NCBI RefSeq assembly: GCF_003855495.1
Contig: NZ_CP034086.1
Coordinates: 2,765,501-2,829,500, forward strand
Source: Methylocystis rosea
GTDB lineage: Bacteria > Pseudomonadota > Alphaproteobacteria > Rhizobiales > Beijerinckiaceae
Direction of reading: 5' to 3'
Length of the DNA stretch: 64,000 bases
The position numbers and the translations under genes were made by a program. Below are positions 23,775-56,239 of the stretch, in pieces. The first letter of the stretch is position 1, and every line of letters begins with the position of its first letter. The notes beneath the pieces are model-generated. The model was given only the letters and a program-made list of their open reading frames with translations, was not told the origin of the DNA and did not search any database.

Positions 23775-25037
23775 TCAGATTCGCGCGCCCGAAACGGCGC
23801 CCCAGGTGGTCCGCCAGCGCGTCTTCACGAAGATCAGACCGACGAGGCCGAGCAGCGCAAGGAAACCGAAGAAGACGAACCCGGCGGTGAAGCCGCCCGT
23901 CGCGCCTTTGGAGTAGGCGAGCGTCTTGGCGAGAAAAAAACCGCCAAACCCGCCCGCGGCGCCGACGAGGCCCGTCATCGCGCCGATCTCCCGGCGGAAC
24001 CGCTGCGGCAGCAACTGAAACACCGCGCCATTGCCCATGCCGAGCGATAGCACGCCGACAGAGAACAGCGCCACCGCTGCAAAGGCGACGGGCGGCAGCT
24101 GCATCAGACCCCATCCCGCGACGCCTTTCGCCGGGGCCGGTCCCGCCGGCAGAAAGGCGACGGCGAAATAGCAGGCGGAGACGAGAACGAAGAGGAAGCA
24201 CAACGTCTTCACCCCGCCGATGCGGTCCGCGATATAGCCGCCGACGGGCCTGAAACCCGAACCGAAAGCGACGATCAGCGCGACCATGAGGCCCGCGGCG
24301 ACTCCCGTGGCGTGATACTGCGTCGTGAAATAGAGCGGAAGCGCCGAAGCAAGACCAACGAAGCCGCCGAACGTAATGAAGTAGAAAAACATGAACCAGC
24401 GGCTGTCGGAGTCTGCGAGCATGCTGCCGTAGTCGGCAAGAGCAATCGTCGTTTTTCCGCCGGGCGCGTCCTTGGCGGCCAGCGAATAAATGAGCAGCAC
24501 CAGGACCATCAGCGCGAGCAATACGCCATAGACGGTCTGCCAACCGTAAGCCTCGGCGATCGAAGGCGCAAAGAGCGTGTCGAGCACGACCCCCATATTG
24601 CCGGCGCCGGCGATGCCCATCACCAGGCCCTGATATTGCGGCGGATACCAGCGGCCCGCCTGCGGCAAGGCGACGGCGAAAGAGGCTCCGGCGAGCCCGA
24701 GAGACAGACCGAAAAGCGCGATGGCGATCGAACTGCTCAGGCCAAAGACGCACACCAGAGATACCGCGAACATCACGATCGCCTGCGCGAGGATGCCCGT
24801 CATCTTCGGGCCGATCGCGTCGGCGAGGAGGCCGAGCGGAACGCGAAAGAAGGCGCCGCCGAGAACTGGAATCGCGACGAGCGAGAGTTTGTCCTCGACC
24901 GAAATCGGCATGCCTTTGGTGATGTAAATCATCAGCGGGCCGAGTGAGACCCAAGCCATGAAGCTGATATCAAAGTAGAGGAAGGCTGCAAGCAACGTCG
25001 GCCAATGACCGGCCTTTTTAAAATCCGACAGTTTCAT
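23775..25037 (-). CDS. Nitrate/nitrite transporter, MFS NarK/NasA type
   Basis: This is a 420-aa protein with 12 predicted membrane segments. The nitrate signature is present in both halves: GLAGASFAVALPQAGRWYPP (with the substrate arginine before WYPP-like motif), and GMGNGAVFQLLPQRFRREIG in the second half. FRVPLGLLADAIGPK is the MFS loop motif. It is expected to import nitrate across the inner membrane for the reductase encoded just upstream. The ATG at 25037 follows GAAGGAGC and overlaps the 3' end of nasA by 20 bp. Confidence 0.95.
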   Translation of the reverse strand: MKLSDFKKAGHWPTLLAAFLYFDISFMAWVSLGPLMIYITKGMPISVEDKLSLVAIPVLGGAFFRVPLGLLADAIGPKMTGILAQAIVMFAVSLVCVFGLSSSIAIALFGLSLGLAGASFAVALPQAGRWYPPQYQGLVMGIAGAGNMGVVLDTLFAPSIAEAYGWQTVYGVLLALMVLVLLIYSLAAKDAPGGKTTIALADYGSMLADSDSRWFMFFYFITFGGFVGLASALPLYFTTQYHATGVAAGLMVALIVAFGSGFRPVGGYIADRIGGVKTLCFLFVLVSACYFAVAFLPAGPAPAKGVAGWGLMQLPPVAFAAVALFSVGVLSLGMGNGAVFQLLPQRFRREIGAMTGLVGAAGGFGGFFLAKTLAYSKGATGGFTAGFVFFGFLALLGLVGLIFVKTRWRTTWGAVSGARI

Positions 25038-27810
25038 CAGATGCTCCTTCTTTCATGTTTGTTTTGTCCTCTCGCGCCAAACCCATCGCAGACTCGGCGG
25101 CGAGAGAAATCTTGATGAGACGTTGAATTTCCGGTTGGCAGGAGCCGCAATTGGAGCCTGCGCGAGTGGCCTTCCCGACGTCGAGCGCCGAGCGGCAGCC
25201 TTGCTGGATTGCGGCTTCGATTTGCTTTTGGCCGACGCTAAAGCATGAACAGACGAGCGGACCGTCATCCGTCCGTTGTCGGCCCGAGCGGCCGGACAAC
25301 AGCGACAGCCGCTCTGACTGATCGAGACGATCGCGGGCGAAGAGTTCGAGCGCCAGGTCCCAGGATTGTGCAACGGGAGACAAAGCCCAGATGAGCGCTG
25401 CGCGGTCCTCGACGAAGGTTGCGCCGGAAAACTGGTCCTTCGTCTCATCGATCAAATGGATAACGTCTTCGCTCGCCGCAGCGGCGTGGATGATCTCCGT
25501 CCACTCGTCATCTGTGAGATTGCCAGCGACGCGATAGCCGTAGCCATTGACGACGGCGACGCGCGCCCACCATACGCCCTCGGGCAACGTGATCGAGCTG
25601 CGGGAGAGAAGAAAGCCCTTCCGCGCGAAGCGCAAAGGGGTGACGATGGCGGGCGTCGCCTTCGATTCCGGCTGTCCCGAGAAGGGGTCGACACAAGGCG
25701 CGACAAGCGCGCCAATGCGCGCATCCGCGGCGGTTTCATCGGTCCAGTGAATCGGCGCGAAAGCATGCCCGGCGGGCTGTCGTTCCGTCACCACCGCGCG
25801 CAAGACGCAGCTTCCATAGGGCGTCGCGACGCGGGCGAAGCCGCCGTCTTCTAATCCAAAGCGTTCAGCGTCCGACGGATTGATTTCAACGAAGGGTTCG
25901 GGAAGATGTCGCGCAAGGCGTGGGCTCTCCCCAGTGCGCGTCATGGTATGCCATTGATCGCGAATGCGGCCAGTATTGAGCCGAAGCGGAAAGTCCCGCG
26001 TCAATGTGGTCGCCAAGGTCGGCTTCGCCGGCGCAACGAATTGTGCTCGTCCACCCTGCGAGATGAAGCCGCCGTCGGCGAAGAAGCGCGCGCAGCCCTT
26101 GCCGTCACCATCGCAGACTGGCCACTGCGTCGGCTCGAGCGCGTCATATTGGGCGTCGCTAAAGCGCGCGAGACCGCCAATGTCGAAAGCGCGCGTTCCG
26201 TTATTCTCGAATGCCGAAAGCGCGGCGTGTTCGCGAAAGACTTCCGCGACCGCTCCGTAGTCGAAGCCTGCAAAACCCAGGCGCCGCGCGACATCGGCGA
26301 AAATCGCCCAATCGGCGCGCGTTTCGCCCGGCGAGGGTAGAAAAGCGCGCTGACGCGAGAGGCGGCGCTCCGAATTTGTCACCGTGCCGCTTTTTTCGCC
26401 CCACGCCTGCGCCGGCAGAAGCAAATGCGCGCCGCTGTTGATCGTGTCGTTCGACGCCACATTGTCGGAGACGATGAAGAGTTTGAGCTTGCTGAGAGCA
26501 GCGCGCGCGGCATTGGCGTTTGGAAGCGACGCCGCCGGATTGGTGCCGACAACCCACAGCGCCTTGATGTCGCCGCGCGCGATGGCGTCGAACATCTGCA
26601 CCGCCTTCAGCCCCTGGCGCGTCGCCATGCGCGGCGCATTCCAGAATCGACGAACGCGGTCGATGCTGTCCGCGTCAAAGCCCATATGGGCGGCGAGGCT
26701 GTTCGCGAGTCCGCCGACTTCGCGTCCGCCCATGGCGTTGGGCTGGCCGGTCAGGGAGAAGGGCGACGCGCCAGGTTTGCCGACTCGGCCCGTCGCGAGG
26801 TGACAATTAATGATGGCGTTGACCTTGTCGGTTCCCTGCGCCGACTGATTGACGCCCTGCGAGAATGCGGTGACCGTGCGCGGCGTTTGCGCGAATAATT
26901 CGAAGAAGGACGCAATGTCGACCTCGCGCAGTCCGGTGGACGCTGCAGTCGCTTCAATCGACGACGCGATGTTCCGCGCCGCCTTTAGGGCGCACTCCAG
27001 CCCCGTCGTATGACGGCGGACGTAATCATCGTCGAAGGCGCCGAGCTTCGCGAGATAGACAAGCAGGCCGCAAAACAGCGCCTGATCCGCGCCCGGCGCA
27101 ATCTGCAGAAAAAGGTCGGCGCTCTCCGCTGTCGGGGTGCGGCGCGTGTCGATGACGACGAGCTTGGCGCCGCGCTCTTCCTTGTTGCGCATGATGCGCT
27201 GGAAAAGAACAGGGTGACACCAGGCGGCGTTCGAGCCGGCAAGCACAATGAGGTCGGCTTCGTCCAGATCTTCATAACAGCCCGGAACGACATCGGCGCC
27301 GAAGGCGCGCTTGTGGCCCGCGACCGTGGAGGCCATGCATAGGCGCGAATTAGTGTCGACGTTGGCCGAGCCGATGAAGCCCTTCATCAGCTTGTTGGCG
27401 ACATAATAGTCCTCGGTCAGCAGCTGACCGGAGAGATAGACCGCGACGGCGTCGGGACCGTGCTCATCGATGATGCGACGAAATCCGTCCGCGGCTTGGT
27501 CCAGCGCGGCACCCCAGCTCACGCGCGCGAAGGCGCCGTCGGCCTGTCGGCGCATCGGATGGAGAAGGCGCCCCTCGAGCCCCAGCGTTTCGCCGAGCGC
27601 TGAGCCCTTTGAGCAGAGCCTACCAAAATTTGCGGGATGAGCCGGATCGCCAATCACGTCGGCGCTATTTGCCGACGCGAGCACGCCGCAACCGACGCCG
27701 CAATAGGGGCAGGTCGAGCGCGTCGTCGTCGCTTGATCAGGCACTAGGCTGTTGTGCGGATTTTCAAGCCGCGCGGGCGCCAGGACTTCATCGAGCATGA
27801 GCGGCCTCAA
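25018..27810 (-). CDS. nasA: Assimilatory nitrate reductase, molybdopterin catalytic subunit
   Basis: This 930-aa cytoplasmic enzyme reduces nitrate to nitrite. The N-terminal [4Fe-4S] motif is CPYCGVGCG with Cys34, 37, 41 and 66; the bis-MGD molybdopterin domain follows (SRLCMASTVAGHKRAFGADV contains the likely Mo-binding Cys) with GVNQSAQGTDKVNAIINCHL. The dinucleotide-binding domain is at about 600-740 (LNTGRIRDQWHTMTRTG). A C-terminal BFD-like [2Fe-2S] domain (CSC at 854-856 and CGSC at 888-891) marks it as the NasA/NasC kind that takes electrons from a separate flavoprotein. It overlaps the upstream flavoprotein gene by 4 bp (ATGA) and narK by 20 bp. Start ATG at 27810; a second ATG lies four codons on. 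Confidence 0.97.
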   Translation of the reverse strand: MRPLMLDEVLAPARLENPHNSLVPDQATTTRSTCPYCGVGCGVLASANSADVIGDPAHPANFGRLCSKGSALGETLGLEGRLLHPMRRQADGAFARVSWGAALDQAADGFRRIIDEHGPDAVAVYLSGQLLTEDYYVANKLMKGFIGSANVDTNSRLCMASTVAGHKRAFGADVVPGCYEDLDEADLIVLAGSNAAWCHPVLFQRIMRNKEERGAKLVVIDTRRTPTAESADLFLQIAPGADQALFCGLLVYLAKLGAFDDDYVRRHTTGLECALKAARNIASSIEATAASTGLREVDIASFFELFAQTPRTVTAFSQGVNQSAQGTDKVNAIINCHLATGRVGKPGASPFSLTGQPNAMGGREVGGLANSLAAHMGFDADSIDRVRRFWNAPRMATRQGLKAVQMFDAIARGDIKALWVVGTNPAASLPNANAARAALSKLKLFIVSDNVASNDTINSGAHLLLPAQAWGEKSGTVTNSERRLSRQRAFLPSPGETRADWAIFADVARRLGFAGFDYGAVAEVFREHAALSAFENNGTRAFDIGGLARFSDAQYDALEPTQWPVCDGDGKGCARFFADGGFISQGGRAQFVAPAKPTLATTLTRDFPLRLNTGRIRDQWHTMTRTGESPRLARHLPEPFVEINPSDAERFGLEDGGFARVATPYGSCVLRAVVTERQPAGHAFAPIHWTDETAADARIGALVAPCVDPFSGQPESKATPAIVTPLRFARKGFLLSRSSITLPEGVWWARVAVVNGYGYRVAGNLTDDEWTEIIHAAAASEDVIHLIDETKDQFSGATFVEDRAALIWALSPVAQSWDLALELFARDRLDQSERLSLLSGRSGRQRTDDGPLVCSCFSVGQKQIEAAIQQGCRSALDVGKATRAGSNCGSCQPEIQRLIKISLAAESAMGLAREDKTNMKEGASDETVGF

Positions 27811-31148: not shown

Positions 31149-32381
31149 TCAGGCGGCCTCTTGCATCGGCGCGCCGAACATCAATTCGTCGCAGTGAGAT
31201 AAAATGTCCGCGCCGGAGCGGATGAGATCGAGAATGTCGGCGGCGCCGCGCGTGTCTCCCACCAGGATCGCGCCCACCAGCCTGTCGTCGCGCTCGACAA
31301 GCTTGCGATAGAGGCCCATGCGCGGGTCCTTGCAGACGATGCGGCGCACATCGCCTTCGCCGAGATAATCGCCGGCCGAGAAAACGCGCACGCCGGAGAC
31401 TTTCAGATTGGTGGAGACGACGCTGCCGCCATAGGAGGCGTCTTGTCCGGCAAGCCGCATGGCGAGAACGCGTCCCTGCTCATAGGCTGGCTCGACGAGG
31501 CCGTAACAGACGCCGCGATGTTCGGCGCATTCGCCGATGGCGTAAACGCCGGCTTCGCTTGTCCCCAAGCCATCGTCGACTTTCACGCCTCGCCCGACGT
31601 CAAGAGCGGCCTGTCGCGCGAGGTCGGCGTTGGGCTGAATGCCGACGGCGAAAATCACGGCGTCGGCTGGAATCGTTTGTCCGTCGGCGAACTCTACATT
31701 CTCGACTTGGCCCGAACCGTTGATGCGCGTCGCGTTAGCGTTGAGAAGCACACGCACGCCCTTCTCTTCGACGAGGCAGCGCAAGATGTCGGCGCCGACC
31801 GCATCGAGTTGGCGCTCCATCAGCCGATCCATGACATGGGCGAGCGTCACGTCGACGCCGCGTCGCGCAAGGCCATAGGCCGCCTCCAGTCCGAGAAGAC
31901 CGCCGCCGATGACGAGCGCGCGCGCGCCTTTGCCTTCCAGCCGGGACAGCGCCTCGACATCCCTTACGTCGCGAAACACGTGAACGCCCGGAAAATCAGC
32001 GCCTTCAATGGGCAGCCTTGCCGCGCGCGACCCGGTGGCGAGCGCGACTTTCGAATAGTCGACGCTCTCGCCATTATCGAGAAGGAGGCGCCGCGCCGCG
32101 GCGTCGATCTTGATGACCTTGCGGCCGCTCAGGACCTCGACGCCAGCAGCGCGCCACCATTGCCGGGGCTTGAGCTCGATGTCGTCGACCGACAATTCCC
32201 CGGCCAGCACCGAAGACAGCAGCACGCGATTATAGGCAAGCCGCGGTTCGTCTCCGATCACGAGAATGTCGTATCGACCCGGCGCCCGGTTCGTCAGCTC
32301 CTCGACGAAACGCGTGGCCGCCATGCCCGCGCCGACGACGACAAGCTTCTCGCGACTTTTACAATCCTGCAATCCAGTCAT
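31149..32381 (-). CDS. NAD(P)/FAD-dependent oxidoreductase of the nitrite reductase (NirB N-terminal) type
   Basis: This 410-aa pyridine-nucleotide disulfide-oxidoreductase-like protein matches the N-terminal FAD/NAD domain of NirB-like enzymes. VVVGAGMAATRFVEEL (FAD), YNRVLLSSVLAGE, ALATGSRAARLPIEG, LVIGGGLLGLEAAYGLARRG (NAD) and GVYAIGECAEHRGVCYGLVE (FAD) are in order. The C-terminal BFD and siroheme domains of NirB are absent, so it should be a stand-alone electron-transfer subunit for NirA or NasA. It is the first gene after the leader with the ANTAR-type hairpins, 118 bp from them. Confidence 0.9.
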   Translation of the reverse strand: MTGLQDCKSREKLVVVGAGMAATRFVEELTNRAPGRYDILVIGDEPRLAYNRVLLSSVLAGELSVDDIELKPRQWWRAAGVEVLSGRKVIKIDAAARRLLLDNGESVDYSKVALATGSRAARLPIEGADFPGVHVFRDVRDVEALSRLEGKGARALVIGGGLLGLEAAYGLARRGVDVTLAHVMDRLMERQLDAVGADILRCLVEEKGVRVLLNANATRINGSGQVENVEFADGQTIPADAVIFAVGIQPNADLARQAALDVGRGVKVDDGLGTSEAGVYAIGECAEHRGVCYGLVEPAYEQGRVLAMRLAGQDASYGGSVVSTNLKVSGVRVFSAGDYLGEGDVRRIVCKDPRMGLYRKLVERDDRLVGAILVGDTRGAADILDLIRSGADILSHCDELMFGAPMQEAA

Positions 32382-32498
32382 GTGTCGACTCTGCTGAACG
32401 GCCGAACGGTCCGGTCACAGGTCGCTTTGCCTTACAGGTGATGAGAACGGGCAAGACGACCGAAGCGCGCCGCGAATTGCGAAATCGCTTCTGTGACG

Positions 32499-32547
32499 GA
32501 GCCCAGCTTTGGGCTCGTTCCGGCGGACCGGCGGTCGTCGTTGACCG
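32499..32547 (-). ncRNA. ANTAR (NasT) target RNA: tandem hairpins with A1/G4 hexaloops in the nir-nas leader
   Basis: On the minus strand two stem-loops follow each other. The first (32547-32532) is CGGTC-AACGAC-GACCG, a 5 bp stem with a six-base loop. After a 15-base linker comes GAGCCC-AAAGCT-GGGCTC (32516-32499), a 6 bp stem with a six-base loop. Both loops have A at position 1 and G at position 4, the published hallmark of RNAs bound by ANTAR-domain antiterminators. The predicted sigma-54 transcript start coincides with the first base of the first stem. NasT is encoded next door. I see a weaker GAAGCG/CGCTTC stem further on but no T-rich terminator before the gene at 32381. Confidence 0.75.
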
Positions 32548-32557
32548 ATGAGGTGAT

Positions 32558-32574
32558 TGCACATTTCGGGCCAG
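32558..32574 (-). promoter_or_regulatory. Sigma-54 (-24/-12) promoter of the nir-nas operon
   Basis: The minus strand reads CTGGCCCGAAATGTGCA, which fits YTGGCACGRNNNTTGCW at all but two of the 14 defined positions, with the invariant GG and GC at the right spacing. The -12 C is at 32559, putting +1 at about 32547. Sigma-54 with NtrC is the usual nitrogen control of nitrate assimilation, which fits. Possible activator sites lie upstream: the dyad 32659-32677 and an imperfect TTGGTC/GCCAA repeat near 32615-32630. Confidence 0.75.
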
Positions 32575-32658
32575 AGGCGCCGGCGTGGCTTTTCCTGAGG
32601 AATGCGGGCGTTTGGCGCTGACCAACGGCAGCAGGCGGCATTTTGCGGCGCCGAATGC

Positions 32659-32677
32659 TTAGGCGCGAGGCGCCTAA
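32659..32677. repeat. Perfect 8-3-8 dyad between nasS and the nir-nas promoter
   Basis: TTAGGCGC-CTC-GCGCCTAA on the minus strand lies 32 bp past the nasS stop and about 100 bp upstream of the sigma-54 promoter. It could be the 3' hairpin of the nasTS transcript (there is no T-run) or an enhancer-type activator site; its GCGCC half sites and symmetry allow either. Confidence 0.5.
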
Positions 32678-32708
32678 CGGCTGTCCCTTTTGAGCATCAG
32701 TTCAGCGC

Positions 32709-33857
32709 TCACAGACGCTGTCCGATATCGAAGCCGGCGAGATAATCTTCATAGCTGCGGTCGTCGAACGACGGTCCCGCAAAGGCCCCGATTTCGCGCT
32801 GAACATGCGGCCCATCGATCGCGGCGTCGAAAAGATCTGGGCGCAGGACGCTCTTCGCGCGATCGGCCATCTCTGGTGAATGGCGGGTCTGCCCCCAGCG
32901 CAGCATCTGCGCATAGATCCATTCGGCTTGCCGTGGATCCGGCCGCATGGCGCCGTCTCGTCCAATGATGAGGTAATTGGCGTCGCTTCGTTCGTCGCGC
33001 GCCTTAACACGCAAATGGCCCGTGAGCACGCGGCGGATGATCTCGGCGTCGACGCCGACATATTCCGGGCGCGAGAGAATTTGCGAAACCTCGTCGTGGT
33101 TATGCGGGTCGTCGACGAAGGCGGCCCCCCGGTCGAGCGCGCGGATCAGCGCCGCTACAAGATCGGGATTGTCGTTGGCGAAGCTCTCGCGCAGAGCGAG
33201 CACTTTCTCGGGCGCGCATGCGAAAATCTCGCAGCCGAAATGCAGAATGACCCCAACGCCAGCGTCGACCGCGACAGAACTCCAGGGCGCGCCGACGCAA
33301 AAGCCGTCGAGCTGGCCGCGCGCCAGATTTTCGACCATGTAAGGCGGCGGCAGAGCGATCAACCGCAGGTCTTCGTCGGGATCGACGCCGCCTTCCGCCA
33401 TCCAGTAGCGCAGCTGATAATTGTGCATGGAAAAAGGAAAGGTCATGCCGAAGGTCAGAGGCTCACGTCCCTCGGCCCTTCGTCGCGCGACGAGCTTGGC
33501 GAGCGCGCGCGCGGTTTGTGCCGGATGCGCGACCTCGCCTTCCGCGGCGAGTTCGGCATAAAGCGACGTGGACACCGCGATCGCATTGCCGTTCATCGCG
33601 AGATTCATCGGCGCGACAAGCGGGACTCGCACATGGCCCAGTCCGAGCGTGGAGGCGACCGCCATCGGCGCCAGAAGATGCGCCGCATCGAAACGGCCGA
33701 TGGCGAGCTTGTCTCTAATATTCGCCCAAGACGCTTCGCGGATCAGTTCGACGTCGAGACCTTCCGCCTTGGCGAAGCCCTTATGCGCGGCAATCAACAG
33801 CGCGGCGGCGTCGACGAGCGGAATGAACCCGATTTTCACATGCGCTTCGCTGGTCAT
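32709..33857 (-). CDS. nasS: Nitrate sensor NasS (NrtA-like, cytoplasmic)
   Basis: This 382-aa protein has the NrtA/periplasmic-binding-protein-like fold (KIGFIPLVDAAALLIAAHKG, FDAAHLLAPMAVASTLGLG, MTFPFSMHNYQLRYWMAEGG, GQLDGFCVGAPWSSVA). It has no signal peptide or lipobox, which separates NasS from the transporter-type NrtA. In the known NasS/NasT pair, NasS holds NasT inactive until nitrate or nitrite binds, then releases it to prevent transcription termination in nitrate-gene leaders. It overlaps nasT by 4 bp (ATGA), as expected for partners made in fixed ratio. No nrtBC transporter genes accompany it. Confidence 0.92.
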   Translation of the reverse strand: MTSEAHVKIGFIPLVDAAALLIAAHKGFAKAEGLDVELIREASWANIRDKLAIGRFDAAHLLAPMAVASTLGLGHVRVPLVAPMNLAMNGNAIAVSTSLYAELAAEGEVAHPAQTARALAKLVARRRAEGREPLTFGMTFPFSMHNYQLRYWMAEGGVDPDEDLRLIALPPPYMVENLARGQLDGFCVGAPWSSVAVDAGVGVILHFGCEIFACAPEKVLALRESFANDNPDLVAALIRALDRGAAFVDDPHNHDEVSQILSRPEYVGVDAEIIRRVLTGHLRVKARDERSDANYLIIGRDGAMRPDPRQAEWIYAQMLRWGQTRHSPEMADRAKSVLRPDLFDAAIDGPHVQREIGAFAGPSFDDRSYEDYLAGFDIGQRL

Positions 33858-34426
33858 TTAAACATCTCCGCCGCAGTGATGACCGAGCGTGCAATTTCGA
33901 TAATCTTTTTGTTTTCGCGCATGGCGGCGCCGCGCATCAATTTGTAAGCGTCCTCTTCGGAAAGCTTCTTCGCCTTCATCAATATGCCTTTGGCGCGTTC
34001 GATCGTCTTGCGCTCCTCAAGATCGGATTTGGCCTGTTCGAGTTCATCCTGAAGCTTCGAGAAGGCATTGAACCGCGACACGCACAGATCGAGGATCGAT
34101 TTAATGCGTTCCTTTTTCAACCCGTCGACGATATAGGCCGAGACCCCAGCGTCGACTGAGGCCTGAATCGACGCCGTATCGCTCTGATCGACAAACATGG
34201 CGATCGGCCGACGCACGGCGCGACTGACCTGAAACATCTGTTCAAGCGTATCGCGCGAAGGATTCTCGAGATCAATCAGGATCACGTCAGGGTCGCTGGC
34301 GTAGATGTGCTTCAGCAGATTGTGCATTTCGCTGATGCGCTCGACCTCTGTGAAGCCGGCGTCACGCAGTCCCTCCTCGAGGATCAGCGAGCGAATGGGA
34401 CTTTCGTCGACAATGACGATCTTCAA
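33854..34426 (-). CDS. nasT: ANTAR-domain response regulator/antiterminator NasT
   Basis: The 190-aa product has an N-terminal receiver-like domain (LKIVIVDESPIRSLILEEGL, DPDVILIDLENPSRDTLEQM) with Asp in place for phosphorylation-like fold, and a C-terminal ANTAR domain (ERKTIERAKGILMKAKKLSE, EEDAYKLMRGAAMRENKKI). NasT binds two-hairpin leader RNAs and blocks termination. Two leaders with suitable hairpins are present in this window, one before its own operon and one before nir-nas. I use the TTG at 34426 because it gives the usual NasT N-terminus; the frame is open to a GTG at 34522, but that stretch has no family resemblance. Confidence 0.93.
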   Translation of the reverse strand: MKIVIVDESPIRSLILEEGLRDAGFTEVERISEMHNLLKHIYASDPDVILIDLENPSRDTLEQMFQVSRAVRRPIAMFVDQSDTASIQASVDAGVSAYIVDGLKKERIKSILDLCVSRFNAFSKLQDELEQAKSDLEERKTIERAKGILMKAKKLSEEDAYKLMRGAAMRENKKIIEIARSVITAAEMFK

Positions 34427-34523
34427 TTCACGGCGTCCAGTGAGCGCATGTAGGGGTCGCGCCAGCGGCGGCGCATCGCCGTCAGTCTCCGCGATCCGCC
34501 CGCCGGGCCGCGACCAACGCACG

Positions 34524-35756
34524 TTATATCTTGAAGCGCAACGACATGCCCGCCTGCCAGTTCTTCATGATCTGCGGACCGTTGAGATTCTGATAGACGG
34601 GCATGCCGGCCTCTACCGCGACAGTCGCATTGTCATAGCCGATAAATTTGCCGCTGATCGTCGCGCCGCCGAAGACTTCGACTCGCTGGCCGCCATAGAA
34701 GGCCGGATTGGCCGGCACGGCCGGGCCGCGGATTTCCGGATCGAAGCCGCGAATCGGTCCCTGCGTCGAACCGCTCACGCGGAAGGTGGTGGTGAGTCCG
34801 GGCGTCCAAGTGTAGCCACCCCAGGCGTTGAATTCATGCAGATCGCCCCAGCGATAGCCCCCGGAAGGATTGGGACCGAACGGAAAGCGCAGGCGATATT
34901 CGAGCAGGTAGTCCCAGGAATAGCCCAGTGAATTTGGGGCCAGAGGGAAGCGCCCGCGATAGCCGAGGCCCCACGACCACGGTCCCAGATAGCCTGCATA
35001 GACGATGCCCGGTAGAAAATCGAATGTGCCCGTGCCGGGCTGCATGCCATAGAATCCTCGGATGTTGCGGCGGGTTCCGTCGGGCAGGAGAAAGTCCTTG
35101 AACGTGGCGGTGTAGCTGCCGGCGGGCAAGGAGATGCCGAGAGAGAGCTGGATGCGGTGGACGTCGTCCTGATAGATACGATAGACGCCCGACAAAGTGA
35201 CGTCGGCAAGGCTCGTCGTTCCCGGCAAACTCCTGCCGAGCGGCAGAATGCCCGACGCGCCCTTGAAGGTTAGGGCGTTGAGATTTTTCTCGATCATGCC
35301 GGCCGTGAGAACCACGGCGAAATCTTTGGTCACGCCGTAGTTCAGGCCGACAATTTGCGTCGCGACCGCGATATTTTGCGGGATGATGCGCACGGTTTGG
35401 CGGGGATTGAGAAAGAACGGCACCGTCGTGACGATATATTCGTTGGAGACCGTGCGCGTTCCCATTTTGATGCCCGACAGATTAGCGAAGACGGGCGTAA
35501 TGGAGAGAACGAGTTTGCCGGCGGCCGGCATATCGGCGCCGAACACCCCCATGGGCGCCGGCGGAGGCGGCGCGGCCGGCGCCAGGGATGGCGGCGGCGC
35601 TTGAAGTTGTACCGAAGGCGCCTCGGACGGCGCGTTCTTGCGGGGCGCGGCGTTCGCGCCGGTCGCCACGAGCGCGGCCGCTGCGACTATCAATTTTGCG
35701 GCGCCGCGCCATGGCGGCTGTCGGCGCATCGATCGCTGGGACTGTGCTCTCTTCAT
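34524..35756 (-). CDS. Outer-membrane beta-barrel protein, transporter/SphA-like, first gene of the nasTS transcript
   Basis: The product is 410 aa from the ATG at 35756 (GAGG seven bases upstream). A signal peptide (AAKLIVAAAALVATGANAA) is followed by a Pro/Ala-rich linker (about 45-75). A region rich in alternating aromatic strands then runs to the C-terminus (GYLGPWSWGLGYRGRFPL, YLLEYRLRFPFGPNPSGGY, WQAGMSLRFKI). This is the look of the outer-membrane channel family annotated as phenol-degradation MetA-like or SphA-like transporters. The gene lies directly upstream of nasT and behind a leader with sigma-54 promoter, ANTAR-type hairpin and terminator. A role as an outer-membrane route for nitrate or nitrite is my inference from this context; the family itself is not tied to one substrate. 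Confidence 0.8.
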   Translation of the reverse strand: MKRAQSQRSMRRQPPWRGAAKLIVAAAALVATGANAAPRKNAPSEAPSVQLQAPPPSLAPAAPPPPAPMGVFGADMPAAGKLVLSITPVFANLSGIKMGTRTVSNEYIVTTVPFFLNPRQTVRIIPQNIAVATQIVGLNYGVTKDFAVVLTAGMIEKNLNALTFKGASGILPLGRSLPGTTSLADVTLSGVYRIYQDDVHRIQLSLGISLPAGSYTATFKDFLLPDGTRRNIRGFYGMQPGTGTFDFLPGIVYAGYLGPWSWGLGYRGRFPLAPNSLGYSWDYLLEYRLRFPFGPNPSGGYRWGDLHEFNAWGGYTWTPGLTTTFRVSGSTQGPIRGFDPEIRGPAVPANPAFYGGQRVEVFGGATISGKFIGYDNATVAVEAGMPVYQNLNGPQIMKNWQAGMSLRFKI

Positions 35757-35798
35757 CGCGAACCTCATCTGCATCTCGCCTGCGCGCGCCCCAGAAAC

Positions 35799-35849
35799 GA
35801 AAAAAGCCGCTGCCTGAACGCCTGCGAAGCAGACGTTCAGGACAGCGGC
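35799..35849 (-). terminator. Intrinsic terminator in the leader of the barrel-nasTS operon
   Basis: On the minus strand GCCGCTGTCCTGAACG (35849-35834) pairs with CGTTCAGGCAGCGGC (35820-35806) with one bulged base. An inner CTGC/GCAG pair closes the loop, and the hairpin is followed by six T (35805-35800). It is the strongest terminator in the window and stands 43 bp before the ATG of the outer-membrane gene. No other minus-strand gene lies upstream for it to terminate, so it should work as an attenuator that NasT can override. Confidence 0.8.
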
Positions 35850-35859
35850 GATGCTGGGG

Positions 35860-35895
35860 GGCCCTTCTGTGGACCGCGTGACGTCGCAAGCGACG
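35860..35895 (-). ncRNA. ANTAR-type antiterminator hairpins in the barrel-nasTS leader
   Basis: Reading the minus strand from the predicted start at about 35901, a stem CGTCG-CTTG-CGACG (35895-35882) comes first. It is followed by GGTCC-ACAGAA-GGGCC (35875-35860), a 5 bp stem with one G-U pair. The second loop has six bases with A at position 1 and G at position 4, as in NasT targets. It sits just before the terminator 35849-35799. The first hairpin has a smaller loop and does not fit the consensus, so only half of the motif is convincing here. Confidence 0.55.
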
Positions 35896-35911
35896 CCCTC
35901 GCGCTATCGGA

Positions 35912-35928
35912 TGCAATCGCGGCGCCAC
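35912..35928 (-). promoter_or_regulatory. Sigma-54 (-24/-12) promoter of the barrel-nasTS operon
   Basis: The minus strand reads GTGGCGCCGCGATTGCA. TGGCGC-N5-TTGCA matches the core TGGCAC-N5-TTGCW with one mismatch and correct spacing. The -12 C is at 35913, placing +1 near 35901, immediately upstream of the leader hairpins. A palindrome TACAGC-TTC-GCTGTA overlaps the upstream side (35930-35944). Confidence 0.7.
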
Positions 35929-35944
35929 CTACAGCGAAGCTGTA

Positions 35945-36661
35945 TGGCGCGCGTCGCTGAGCCGCTCTGGAAGCCAGGCTTTTGCAGGGGTTCGCGCTTG
36001 CACGCGCGCGCTTGCGAAACATTCACGAGGAATTATTCGCGTGGCGCGCTTGCTTGCGAGGCGGCAACGAACGCTGAAAAAATTCGCATTCTGCCGCCAA
36101 CAGCGACAGCCGCTCCGTCCTTGTAGCAGGCGTTTGCCGTGATGACGCGGCCTTCTACATGTCTTCCGTCCGACGTCCGTGTTTGGACAGGGAGGACGCA
36201 ATGAGAGGATGTGAAACTTGTCTCGCGGCCGCCGCCTCAGAAGGCTCGCGATGAACGAGACCAAGAAGAAAGCGCCGACGACCGATCAGCGCGGGCGCCG
36301 ATCCTGCCGTCGCCCCTTCGGGGACCGACGAAGAGGCCGGCGGATTTCCGCCGACGGAGAAGGAGCCGTGCGCTCGCAGTCGAGAAGTCCGCCGGCAAGC
36401 CGCAGACGCCGTCCTAGAAGTAGCTGCCTCCCATAGCGCCGCCGAACGCTCAACTCCCGCGCCCTTCAATGCCGCGAGCGTGGAGTTGATGGTCGATGCC
36501 GGCAGCGGCGCGCCGGTGGGATATTCACCTGCTATGCGCCATTTAGCTGTTTGCTGATGCAGTTGCGCCCGTTCCGACGACACGGATGTGAGCGCATCCA
36601 ACGACGACCTAAAAATCCTAATAGCGCCTTTACATCATTCGCGCGCAAATTGCGGTTCGTG
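35945..36661. other. Region without a convincing gene; small overlapping frames at 36201-36436
   Basis: No frame here shows a known family. The best signal is on the plus strand: GGGAGG sits six bases before an ATG at 36201 that encodes a 17-residue peptide (MRGCETCLAAAASEGSR). Its TGA overlaps an ATG at 36251 (ATGA), which opens a 61-aa Arg-rich frame ending at 36436. A better-looking peptide (GTDEEAGGFPPTEKEP and onward) is in the +1 frame of the same stretch, so a frameshifted gene is possible. The minus-strand frame over the same bases is probably a shadow. I do not count any of these as a gene. Confidence 0.3.
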
Positions 36662-36693
36662 GTTCTCGTTTGACAAAGCATCAAGGCGAGAAC
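36662..36693 (+). promoter_or_regulatory. Candidate promoter/operator of the kdp operon
   Basis: GTTCTCG (36662-36668) and CGAGAAC (36687-36693) form a 7 bp inverted repeat that frames a perfect -35-like TTGACA at 36670-36675. No clear -10 element with normal spacing follows. The position, 25 bp before the first small kdp-linked ORF, makes it a plausible KdpE-controlled promoter or operator. Confidence 0.35.
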
Positions 36694-36717
36694 GCGACAT
36701 TAAAGTGAGATGCGCTC

Positions 36718-36831
36718 ATGCCTCTATCTCTCATAGGCCTAGGCGTCGCGGCCTTTATCTTTGTGATCGCGAACAATCTGGTTCACGAGATGCGCGCGCG
36801 GCGTGCGCGCATTGATTCACGTCGCCGGTAA
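36718..36831 (+). CDS. 37-aa single-span membrane peptide upstream of kdp
   Basis: The frame from the ATG at 36718 reads MPLSLIGLGVAAFIFVIANN, then LVHEMRARRARIDSRRR: a hydrophobic helix followed by a very basic tail, the layout of a small inner-membrane peptide with its C-terminus in the cytoplasm. The ribosome site is weak (GTGAG). It is the first of three short membrane frames that precede kdpA on the same strand. No family is recognised. Confidence 0.45.
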   Translation: MPLSLIGLGVAAFIFVIANNLVHEMRARRARIDSRRR

Positions 36832-36847
36832 GCGCGGAGAGGAACAC

Positions 36848-36931
36848 ATGCTCGATCTTCTGTACGTTGGCCTCGGTCTTTTCCTGTTTGCGATCGTTGG
36901 CGCCTATGCGCGGGCCTGCGGGCGCCTTTAG
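36848..36931 (+). CDS. 27-aa membrane peptide upstream of kdpF
   Basis: The ATG at 36848 follows GGAGAGGA, a strong ribosome site. The product begins MLDLLYVGLGLFLFAIVGAY and ends ARACGRL, one membrane helix with a short basic end. Similar tiny peptides with an R-A-C motif are often seen just before kdpF in proteobacterial kdp operons, usually unannotated. It ends 9 bp before the kdpF ATG. Confidence 0.6.
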   Translation: MLDLLYVGLGLFLFAIVGAYARACGRL

Positions 36932-36940
36932 GAGAACCGC

Positions 36941-37027
36941 ATGTTTGAACCTGTCATCGGACTGATCGTCGCCGTTCTTCTCGGCGCCTATCTCGCCTAT
37001 ACGCTGCTCCATCCCGAAAAATTCTAA
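36941..37027 (+). CDS. kdpF: Potassium-transporting ATPase small subunit KdpF
   Basis: This is a 28-aa membrane peptide starting [20 protein letters not shown] and ending TLLHPEKF, the standard KdpF pattern of one helix ending LL-P-E-K-F. A ribosome site (AGGAGAA) overlaps the stop of the preceding peptide. KdpF stabilises the KdpABC complex. kdpA follows 31 bp downstream. Confidence 0.9.
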
Positions 37028-37058
37028 AGGGAGGCTCGGCATATGCCGGGCGTTCGCC

Positions 37059-38768
37059 ATGACTTCCATTGGGCTGGCGCAAATCGCCATCGTCCTGCTT
37101 GCCGTTATTGTCGCCGCTATTCCGCTCGGCAATTACATAGCCACCGTCTTAGCGGGCGAGCGCAGCCTGCTCTCTCCCGTGCTCTCGCCCCTTGAGCGCG
37201 TCTTCTACAGACTCTCCGGCGTTGATCCAGCGCGGGAGCAAAACTGGCTTGCCTACGCGATGGCGATGCTGGCCTTCAGCGTCGTTGGATTTGCGTCGCT
37301 CTACGCCCTGCAGCGGCTCCAGGCCTATCTGCCGCTCAATCCTCAGGGCTTTAGCGGGGTTCCCGCCGACCTCGCCTTCAACACGTCGATGAGCTTCGTC
37401 ACCAACACCAATTGGCAAAACTACGGCGGCGAGTCGACGATGAGCCACCTGACGCAGATGCTCGGCCTCACCGTGCATAATTTCGCATCCGCCGCCACCG
37501 GCCTTGCGATGGCGTTCGCGTTGGTGCGCGGTTTCTCGCGCGCCGAATCGCCGACCGTCGGCAATTTCTGGGTCGACCTCACCCGTTCGACGCTTTACGT
37601 GCTCCTGCCGCTTTCGATCGTCGTCGCGCTCGCCCTCGTCGCTCTCGGCGTGCCGCAGACGCTTCAGGGTTCGGTCGAAGCGACGACGCTGGAGGGCGCC
37701 AGGCAGATGCTCGCCATAGGCCCGGTCGCCAGCCAGGAGGCGATCAAGGAGCTCGGCACCAATGGCGGCGGCTTCTTCAACGCCAATTCCGCGCATCCTT
37801 TCGAGAGCCCGAACGCCCTTTCCAACATGCTGGAAATCTGGGCTCTGCTTGTCATCCCCTTCGCCACGGCCTTCGCCTTTGGGCGTGCGGTCTTCGACTA
37901 TCGACAAGGTCGCGCGATCGCCATCACGATGATGATCGTGCTCGTCGCGGGCGTATCAGTCGCTTACTGGGCCGAGGCAGGCGGCAATCCGTTGCTGACG
38001 GAGATCGGCGTCGATCCTTCGTCTGGCAATATGGAAGGCAAGGAGGTGCGCTTCGGCCCTGCGATGAGCGCGCTATTTGCCGCGTCGACCACGGGCACGA
38101 GCTGCGGCGCCGTCAACGCCATGCATGACTCGTTCATGCCGCTCGGCGGTCTCGTTCCCTTGTTCAACATGCTCATGGGCAGCATCGCGCCGGGCGGCGT
38201 CGGCGCGGGGCTCTACGGGTTTCTCGTCTTGGCGATCATCGCGGTTTTCATCGCGGGTCTTATGGTCGGCCGCACGCCGGAATATCTCGGCAAGAAGATT
38301 GAGACACGCGAGATGAAGCTCGCGATGCTGGCGGTGCTGATCTATCCGCTCAGCGTTCTTGCCTTCACGGGCGTTTCGGTCATGCTTCAGACGGGGCTCG
38401 CCAGTCTCAACAATGCCGGCCCGCACGGGCTTTCCGAAATCCTTTACGCATTCGCTTCGGCGACGGATAACAACGGATCGGCCTTCGCAGGGCTGACGGG
38501 CAATACGCCTTGGTACAACACGACGCTCGGCGTCGCAATGCTGCTCGGACGCTTCGCCTTCGTCATTCCCGTGTTGGCGATCGCCGGCGCGTTCGCGGCG
38601 AAAAAGAAGGGCGCCGCCTCGGTGGGAACCTTCCCGACGCATGGGCCTCTCTTCATCGGCCTGCTGCTCGGCGTCATCGTCATCCTCTATCTGCTGCAAT
38701 ATTTCCCAGCGCTCGCGCTCGGCCCAATCGTCGAGCATTTCGCGCTGCTTGCAGGAAAAACCTTCTAA
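37059..38768 (+). CDS. kdpA: Potassium-transporting ATPase subunit KdpA
   Basis: This is the K+ channel-like subunit of the high-affinity KdpFABC pump (569 aa, normal length). Ten or so membrane segments are visible, with selectivity-filter-type segments [49 protein letters not shown] and [13 protein letters not shown]. It opens with [20 protein letters not shown]. It sits second in a full kdpFABCDE operon. Confidence 0.98.
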
Positions 38769-55984: not shown

Positions 55985-56239
55985 CCCGCGAGGTCGCCCT
56001 CTGGACTTATTGACCGGTAGCTAAGTCGTAAACTAAGTTTTAACGGATGGGGATGGGGTTCCCCCGATAACCGCCGAAAGGCTGATGACTCCTGCGAACT
56101 CGCCGCCGCGTTCTTAAGATCGTCGGCGCAGGGTAGGAGTGTCCTGTTGCTTAGAGAACCCGCACCCCGTCGTGCGCCTCGCCGCCGTTGCCGCCTGCGC
56201 CCTGGCCGCAGCGCAGCCACGGCCGCCTCGGGCATCGGC

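Follow-up and report, generated by a model that had tools for sequence, protein, structure and literature searches.

A candidate NasT-responsive attenuator upstream of barrel, nasT, and nasS suggests autogenous control of the nitrate regulators in Methylocystis rosea

A leader RNA of the ANTAR dual-hairpin type was found upstream of barrel, nasT, and nasS in Methylocystis rosea. Judging from its sequence and gene context, we read it as a NasT-responsive attenuator that would place the barrel-nasT-nasS operon under autogenous positive control, as a lineage-specific variant, and we put the probability of this reading at roughly two in three. The leader itself is genuine and of canonical build, and it is very likely read by NasT. 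Autogenous control is the best reading because an ANTAR-type leader precedes the operon, because NasT is the single ANTAR match across the proteins of the genome, which rules out other ANTAR proteins as readers of the leader, and because neither a terminator nor a sigma-54-like site was found in the gap between barrel and nasT. An earlier note on this DNA had proposed control of this kind and had joined to it a kindred leader before nir-nas; the proposal survives on the three grounds just given, but the kinship does not. The window, by which we mean the whole 64,000-nucleotide stretch of DNA that was analyzed (G000:C1:2765501-2829500), lies within a 4.2-Mb genome, and its relevant features are collected in Table 1.

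On the minus strand, the leader is followed in order by barrel, nasT, nasS, a second leader, and the genes for a nir FAD protein, a NirA-family nitrite reductase, and a flavoprotein. Downstream of the flavoprotein gene, positions 25018 to 27810 read, from the sequence alone, as a putative nitrate reductase gene, followed at 23775 to 25037 by that of a putative transporter. NasT combines a receiver-like and an ANTAR domain, and the NMT1/NrtA-like NasS gene adjoins nasT. The ATG at 35756 is the likeliest start of barrel, as judged from its conservation; the ATGs at 35774 and 35768 are absent from some relatives. No Pfam or NCBIfam family scored above its cutoff for the barrel protein, and a search of PDB sequences with a barrel profile gave no relative (best E value, 1.7). 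Its AlphaFold model has an N-terminal helix followed by long beta hairpins, with a mean pLDDT of only 59. The closest named relatives by the barrel gene are mostly Methylocystis, the best at 93 to 95% identity. A barrel paralogue with 53% identity is present in the same genome (G000:C1:1231269-1232255), where a leader match is absent. M. rosea SV97, which has the leader-barrel-nasT-nasS layout at locus L047, carries a second barrel copy (L053), matching over residues 1 to 225 only, with a leader at 83.8 bits and without nasT or nasS matches at that locus. In a metagenome genome (L044:3022-5861), about 1.6 kb of other DNA interrupts barrel between leader and nasT. Elsewhere in the window, a fluoride riboswitch was found at 56040 to 56101 on the plus strand (Rfam RF01734; 60.3 bits).

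Table 1. Features of the leader, the regulator operon, and the nir-nas element (window coordinates)
Feature	Positions	Strand	Remarks
Putative NtrC enhancer, dyad 1 (TGTCGCTGTTGGCGGCA)	36092..36108	-	2 mismatches to the P. denitrificans NtrC consensus (PMC5424462)
Putative NtrC enhancer, dyad 2 (TGCGAATTTTTTCAGCG)	36072..36088	-	20 nt from dyad 1; 3 mismatches to the same consensus
Candidate sigma-54 -24/-12 promoter element (TGGCGCCGCGATTGCA)	35912..35927	-	Start expected near 35901
Hairpin 5' of P1, 7 bp, CUUG loop	35880..35897	-	Not an ANTAR hexaloop
P1 hairpin, GGUCC-ACAGAA-GGGCC	35860..35875	-	A1/G4 hexaloop
P2 hairpin, CAGC-AUCGCC-GCUG	35843..35856	-	A1/G4 hexaloop; predicted antiterminator
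Intrinsic terminator stem, 7 + 13 bp	35806..35849	-	5' base common to P2
U6 tract of terminator	35800..35805	-	
barrel, beta-rich, probably secreted protein	34524..35756	-	First gene of the operon; start at a conserved ATG, 35756
nasT, receiver and ANTAR domains	33854..34426	-	TTG start; PF00072, 39.1 bits; PF03861, 68 bits
nasS, NMT1-like nitrate sensor	32709..33857	-	PF13379, 254.1 bits; ATGA overlap with nasT stop
Different leader before nir-nas	32384..32573	-	Sigma-54-like site, two A1/G4 hexaloops, long-range stem, no U tract

The leader region as a whole, from 35927 to 35800 on the minus strand, consists of the sigma-54 element followed by two adjacent hairpins, P1 and P2, both with the A1/G4 hexaloop expected of ANTAR targets, and a terminator that P2 overlaps. 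P1 and P2 are separated by 3 nt here and by 2 to 5 nt among 17 distinct leaders. The end of the P2 loop together with its 3' arm (GCCGCUG) forms the 5' base of the terminator, the 3' arm of which (CAGCGGC) runs into the U tract; the terminator has 20 bp in all, one bulged U, and a UUC loop. No Rfam family matches the leader. Much of this had been anticipated in the earlier note: the A1/G4 hexaloop ACAGAA is the loop of P1, and the sigma-54 element TGGCGC-N5-TTGCA lies at 35927 to 35912, one position from the 35928 given before. The terminator described there as 15 bp with six T was recovered with its six U but proved longer and bulged. Of the hairpin pair named there, with one hexaloop between them, P1 stands, but the other member, at 35897 to 35880, was rejected as an ANTAR hairpin for its loop, and the true partner, P2, had been missed. 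A promoter between the terminator and position 35756 had been named as a counter-check; a simple scan of the minus strand, which also misses the bulged terminator itself, found no promoter-like or terminator-like site there.

An 81-nt piece of the leader folds as P1 plus terminator at -47.1 kcal/mol (z score, -6.4; none of 200 shuffles as good), and a 36-nt piece with P1 and P2 folds as two hairpins at -12.5 kcal/mol. When the growing transcript was folded in 4-nt steps, P1 and P2 were together in the minimum-energy fold at every length from 60 to 88 nt, P2 was lost at 92 nt, and the full terminator was present at 96 nt, as its 3' arm is completed. Forcing P1 and P2 on the 105-nt leader cost 9.4 kcal/mol. 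With P2 held, a 13-bp upper hairpin is left that stands 7 nt away from the U tract, which matches read-through as set out in the available text of a commentary on the ANTAR model (PMC3369936). The minimum-energy fold of a 145-nt piece (-76.8 kcal/mol) was set aside, as it pairs P1 beyond the U tract and does not give a cotranscriptional picture.

The sigma-54 element has the GG-N10-GC spacing and flanking consensus of a -24/-12 promoter, and the genome contains genes for sigma-54 (230.8 bits) and for the activator NtrC (701.4 bits, above the curated cutoff). By itself the element is weak evidence, because the strict pattern TGGCRCN5TTGCW has one match in the window where 0.17 would be expected, and 16 of 100 shuffles give at least one. 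The 28 relatives compared here, hand-picked from the scanned loci for showing the leader, all have a TGGC...TGC site ahead of it. Farther upstream, 12 of the 14 regions compared have a counterpart of dyad 1 near -180, on either strand, and all 14 have one of dyad 2 near -160, each with at most three mismatches; these counts were made without a chance control and with a loose pattern, the consensus of which comes from P. denitrificans (PMC5424462, available text). By analogy, two-key control by NtrC and NasT in M. rosea would fit the account of nalA, which stands before nirBD, in the accessible part of a review that describes a sigma-54/NtrC start combined with NasT antitermination (PMC12830290).

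A regulator gene appears to stand behind its own target leader in one operon, leader-barrel-nasT-nasS. The order leader-barrel-nasT was found in 10 of 199 genomes of the family (G000, G017, G089, G114, G135, G146, G151, G174, G177, and G190), and a leader with barrel apart from nasT was found in five (G042, G078, G128, G161, and G187). This separation from nasTS indicates that the barrel leader is an independent target, and the joining of such a target to nasTS would make a loop. In the window, the gap between barrel and nasT measures 97 nt, and neither a terminator nor a sigma-54-like site was found in it. Of 25 loci, 20 have a gap of 59 to 111 nt that contains no terminator, although three of these 20 (L036, L042, and L055) end short of the leader; in the other five the gap is 301 to 889 nt, with a terminator inside it in L046 and L048. 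The feedback loop is probably broken in L046, L048, and L013 of G114, because a gap terminator or a sigma-54-like site precedes nasT there, and nasT may have escaped the loop in L046, L048, and perhaps G114.

The strongest alternative is that the leader mainly controls barrel, while nasT and nasS are expressed chiefly from a separate promoter within barrel or the 97-nt gap, so that any feedback would be slight. A sigma-54-like site within 200 nt before nasT was found at 15 of 28 loci with the usual layout (one further locus gave no nasT match) and at none of the five loci with barrel unlinked, as well as in L013 and L048 among the linked loci, and the gap terminators of L048 and L046 and the five genomes in which barrel and its leader stand apart from nasTS point the same way. 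However, no such site precedes nasT in 22 of 24 linked loci, no terminator was found in 23 of the 25 gaps, and a scan of 32300 to 37100 on the minus strand, weak for this phylum, gave no sigma-70-like site. We consider a separate promoter unlikely and autogenous control by NasT the better account. A small protein of 54 to 97 amino acids by open reading frame (ORF) lies between barrel and nasT in L048 (L048:6019-6237), L061, L067, L046, and L041, with one hydrophobic stretch by eye and a VKIVDALLDELH-like tail; it was not seen in the 97-nt gap of the window, and the L048 copy has no Pfam family above the cutoff.

Leaders of the same type were sought with two covariance models, each with the leader of the window in its seed, so that the score of that leader is no test. 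The first, R1, found the leader in 36 of the 199 family genomes; as it reaches fewer genomes than nasT (36 versus 97), it misses leaders, and absence is not demonstrable with it. Behind 29 of the 30 family leaders outside the barrel context, a nitrate-assimilation gene (NrtA-like, nir FAD, nirA, flavoprotein, nas, or narK homologue) was found on the strand of the leader and within 9 kb; L107 had none. NrtA-like is our label for proteins about 30% identical to NasS, and the family gene maps consist of greedy ORFs, with the strand wrong in places, onto which nasT, nasS, and barrel were placed by BLAST. The second model, R2, built from 54 matches and run on 397 genomes of the order, gave 103 matches in 97 genomes, placed in part with nasT positions taken from the family-level nasT search. 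The great majority (85 matches in 81 genomes) lie 1.2 to 6.7 kb downstream of nasT on the nasT strand, six lie far from nasT, and 10 were left unplaced, the nasT position missing or no nasT found. The two matches upstream of nasT are those of G000 and G017, both of the genus of the window. From this context, RNAs of this type look like the standard targets of NasT in nitrate assimilation, and a leader placed ahead of nasT is an uncommon, lineage-specific layout in the order sample. In four genomes (G407, G426, G495, and G545), one NasT-type leader follows another of the same orientation at a distance of about 3.5 kb, which suggests two successive attenuators in one nitrate gene cluster.

For the autogenous reading, we infer promoter use, NasT binding, a nitrate response, cotranscription, and feedback as follows. 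Sigma-54 RNA polymerase, presumably activated by NtrC at low ammonium, would start near 35901. Without free NasT, the nascent P2 would be displaced by the 20-bp terminator, and most transcripts would stop at 35800. With nitrate or nitrite, NasS would release NasT, and a NasT dimer would hold the hexaloops of P1 and P2; P2 so held would keep the base of the terminator, the upper hairpin would remain off the U tract, and the polymerase would continue through barrel, nasT, and nasS. NasT would thereby raise its own synthesis in a positive feedback, with NasS made alongside as a brake. A second alternative accepts that the leader depends on NasT and supposes that it does not depend on nitrate in practice, enough NasT being free without nitrate for the operon to follow ammonium and NtrC alone. 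The nas transcript of P. denitrificans, described as already present on glutamate in the available part of the source (PMC5424462), would agree with this, but in the same organism loss of NasS makes nas expression constitutive (PMC3795266, available text), from which it follows that NasS normally restrains NasT there, and NasS is present in M. rosea. We therefore judge nitrate-independent expression quite improbable.

The combined pattern of dual hexaloops and an overlapping terminator, written after the motif had been seen, has a single instance in the window when both strands are counted, and 3 of 60 dinucleotide shuffles contained one (mean, 0.05). Taken without the terminator, dual hexaloops are not enriched over chance (8 in the window versus a shuffle mean of 10.1), and in a simple scan shuffled sequence yields as many terminator-like sites as the region does. 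Thirty loci show the dual motif ahead of a barrel relative, in 17 distinct P1/P2 versions; some of these loci are one contig taken twice, and the script demanded A1/G4. Positions A1 and G4 of the P1 loop are present in every row of alignment A1 (21 of 23 candidate rows), the rows having been taken by the P2 motif from loci hand-picked from a display of A1/G4 loops; the invariance of the loops in this alignment and in alignment A2 is for that reason not independent. Among the 30 R1 matches outside the barrel context, none of which was in the R1 seed, the P2 loop has A1/G4 in all 30 and the P1 loop in 22, the eight exceptions being three with G at position 1 and five without a clean P1 alignment.

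Covariation was assessed in alignment A2 (15 rows). Seven of the 18 base pairs of P1 and the terminator changed on both sides, a number reached by 5 of 500 shuffles, and the covariation score of 0.349 exceeded that of the best slid control (0.154) and was equaled by none of 500 shuffles. Compensatory change was not found in P2, of whose four pairs two are invariant, one changed on one side, and one departs only by unpaired cells; the case for P2 is therefore one of conservation and geometry. That the stretch is simply the terminator of some upstream transcript, its hexaloops having arisen by chance, is an idea to which the shuffle frequencies of terminator-like sites and of dual hexaloops taken alone lend some color, but it is hardly credible, since the next family-confirmed gene upstream, kdpA, is divergent, the ORF at 36155 to 36601 has no NCBIfam match, the leader keeps its place before barrel where the DNA farther upstream differs, and P1 and the terminator covary.

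The RNA before nir-nas is of another build. According to the earlier note, NasT would read through nir-nas from the same kind of leader; this was not borne out, and we rejected the element as a second copy of the barrel leader, because R1 does not match it and it has no U tract, its longest U run being three. A simple scan found no terminator-like site on its strand. The element comprises 190 nt with 88% mean column identity over 12 rows. Its hexaloop hairpins are GGUC-AACGAC-GACC and GAGCCC-ANNGNN-GGGCUC (with G at position 1 in L043 and L044), a CCGG-UCCG-CCGG hairpin lies between the hexaloops, and the long-range stem is conserved around GUCACA/UGUGAC. Because compensatory changes are few (2 of 51 pairs), the consensus fold rests on conservation. 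The nir element is present at every one of the 20 loci where the barrel-nasT gap is tight, and a terminator-type second leader was seen at none of them. Conversely, L041, L046, L048, and L061 show a second leader of the terminator type but lack the nir element, L064 has a copy of the element with three mismatches, and L067 has neither. Since the loci are related by descent, the association of the nir element with the tight gap represents one or a few events, not 20. The core pattern of the element, with at most two mismatches, was found once each in 8 of the 199 family genomes, and at L035:8201-8400 its start is repeated in tandem around an N, probably an assembly artifact.

A tentative scenario, which we think possible but less probable than not, is that in one Methylocystis/Methylosinus lineage the intrinsic-terminator nitrate switch has moved from the nitrate-use genes to the regulator genes, and nir-nas has lost its terminator and carries in its place a highly conserved ANTAR-type RNA that has none. 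The main effect of nitrate would in that case be to make NasT amplify its own synthesis, and the level of NasT would be read by the second, nonterminator ANTAR element, for example at the level of translation or Rho, giving an all-or-none, history-dependent response. The conserved RNA before nir-nas seems to work through ANTAR hexaloops with no intrinsic terminator involved, and the arrangement as a whole suggests that a regulon was rewired by moving one attenuator. If the autogenous reading is true, NasT would be an autogenous switch in methane oxidizers, and near relatives would allow the feedback to be compared among species that have leader-barrel-nasTS, those in which barrel and nasTS are separate, and those in which a terminator precedes nasT.

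Like the leaders of eutP, nasF, and amiE in the available descriptions of the ANTAR dual-hairpin RNA (PMC3369931 and PMC3369936), the leader in the window has two hairpins with A1/G4 hexaloops, the second of which overlaps the 5' base of a terminator with a U tract, and it occupies a leader position at nitrogen genes; unlike them, as far as those descriptions go, it precedes the operon that encodes its likely reader. With the NasS-NasT leaders of P. denitrificans nasA, B. diazoefficiens nosR/nirA, and P. putida nirBD/nalA it shares the same protein pair, whereas those leaders stand before structural genes in the published text available. In the usual alphaproteobacterial layout, nasT-nasS-leader-nrt/nir, the leader type and the regulators in cis are the same, and the leader lies at least 1.2 kb downstream of nasT, which leaves nasT outside its control. 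Nitrate-dependent dissociation of NasS and NasT is known for P. denitrificans (PMC3795266, available text). In that organism, nasT is described in the accessible part of PMC5424462 as NtrC controlled with little effect of nitrate, its promoter giving 11000 units on glutamate and 15000 on glutamate plus nitrate; these near-equal activities indicate that nasT is not always nitrate controlled. In B. diazoefficiens, according to the available text of PMC6759348, NasT acts on the nosR leader, hairpins are predicted in the leaders of coxS, nirA, narK, and bjgb, and narK and bjgb go up, not down, without NasT. A literature search, with most subscription papers outside its reach, gave no report of NasT controlling its own operon.

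The nearest parallel is AmiC-AmiR of the P. aeruginosa amiECBRS operon, in which, in the accounts available, a ligand-binding partner holds the ANTAR protein as NasS holds NasT; it differs from NasS-NasT in responding to amides, not nitrate. Unlike the leader in the window with its sigma-54 element, the ami operon is not known to have a sigma-54 promoter. The gene for AmiR lies within the operon whose amiE leader AmiR targets, as described in the available text of PMC3369936. Autogeny of an ANTAR protein is as such not new, AmiR being the precedent.
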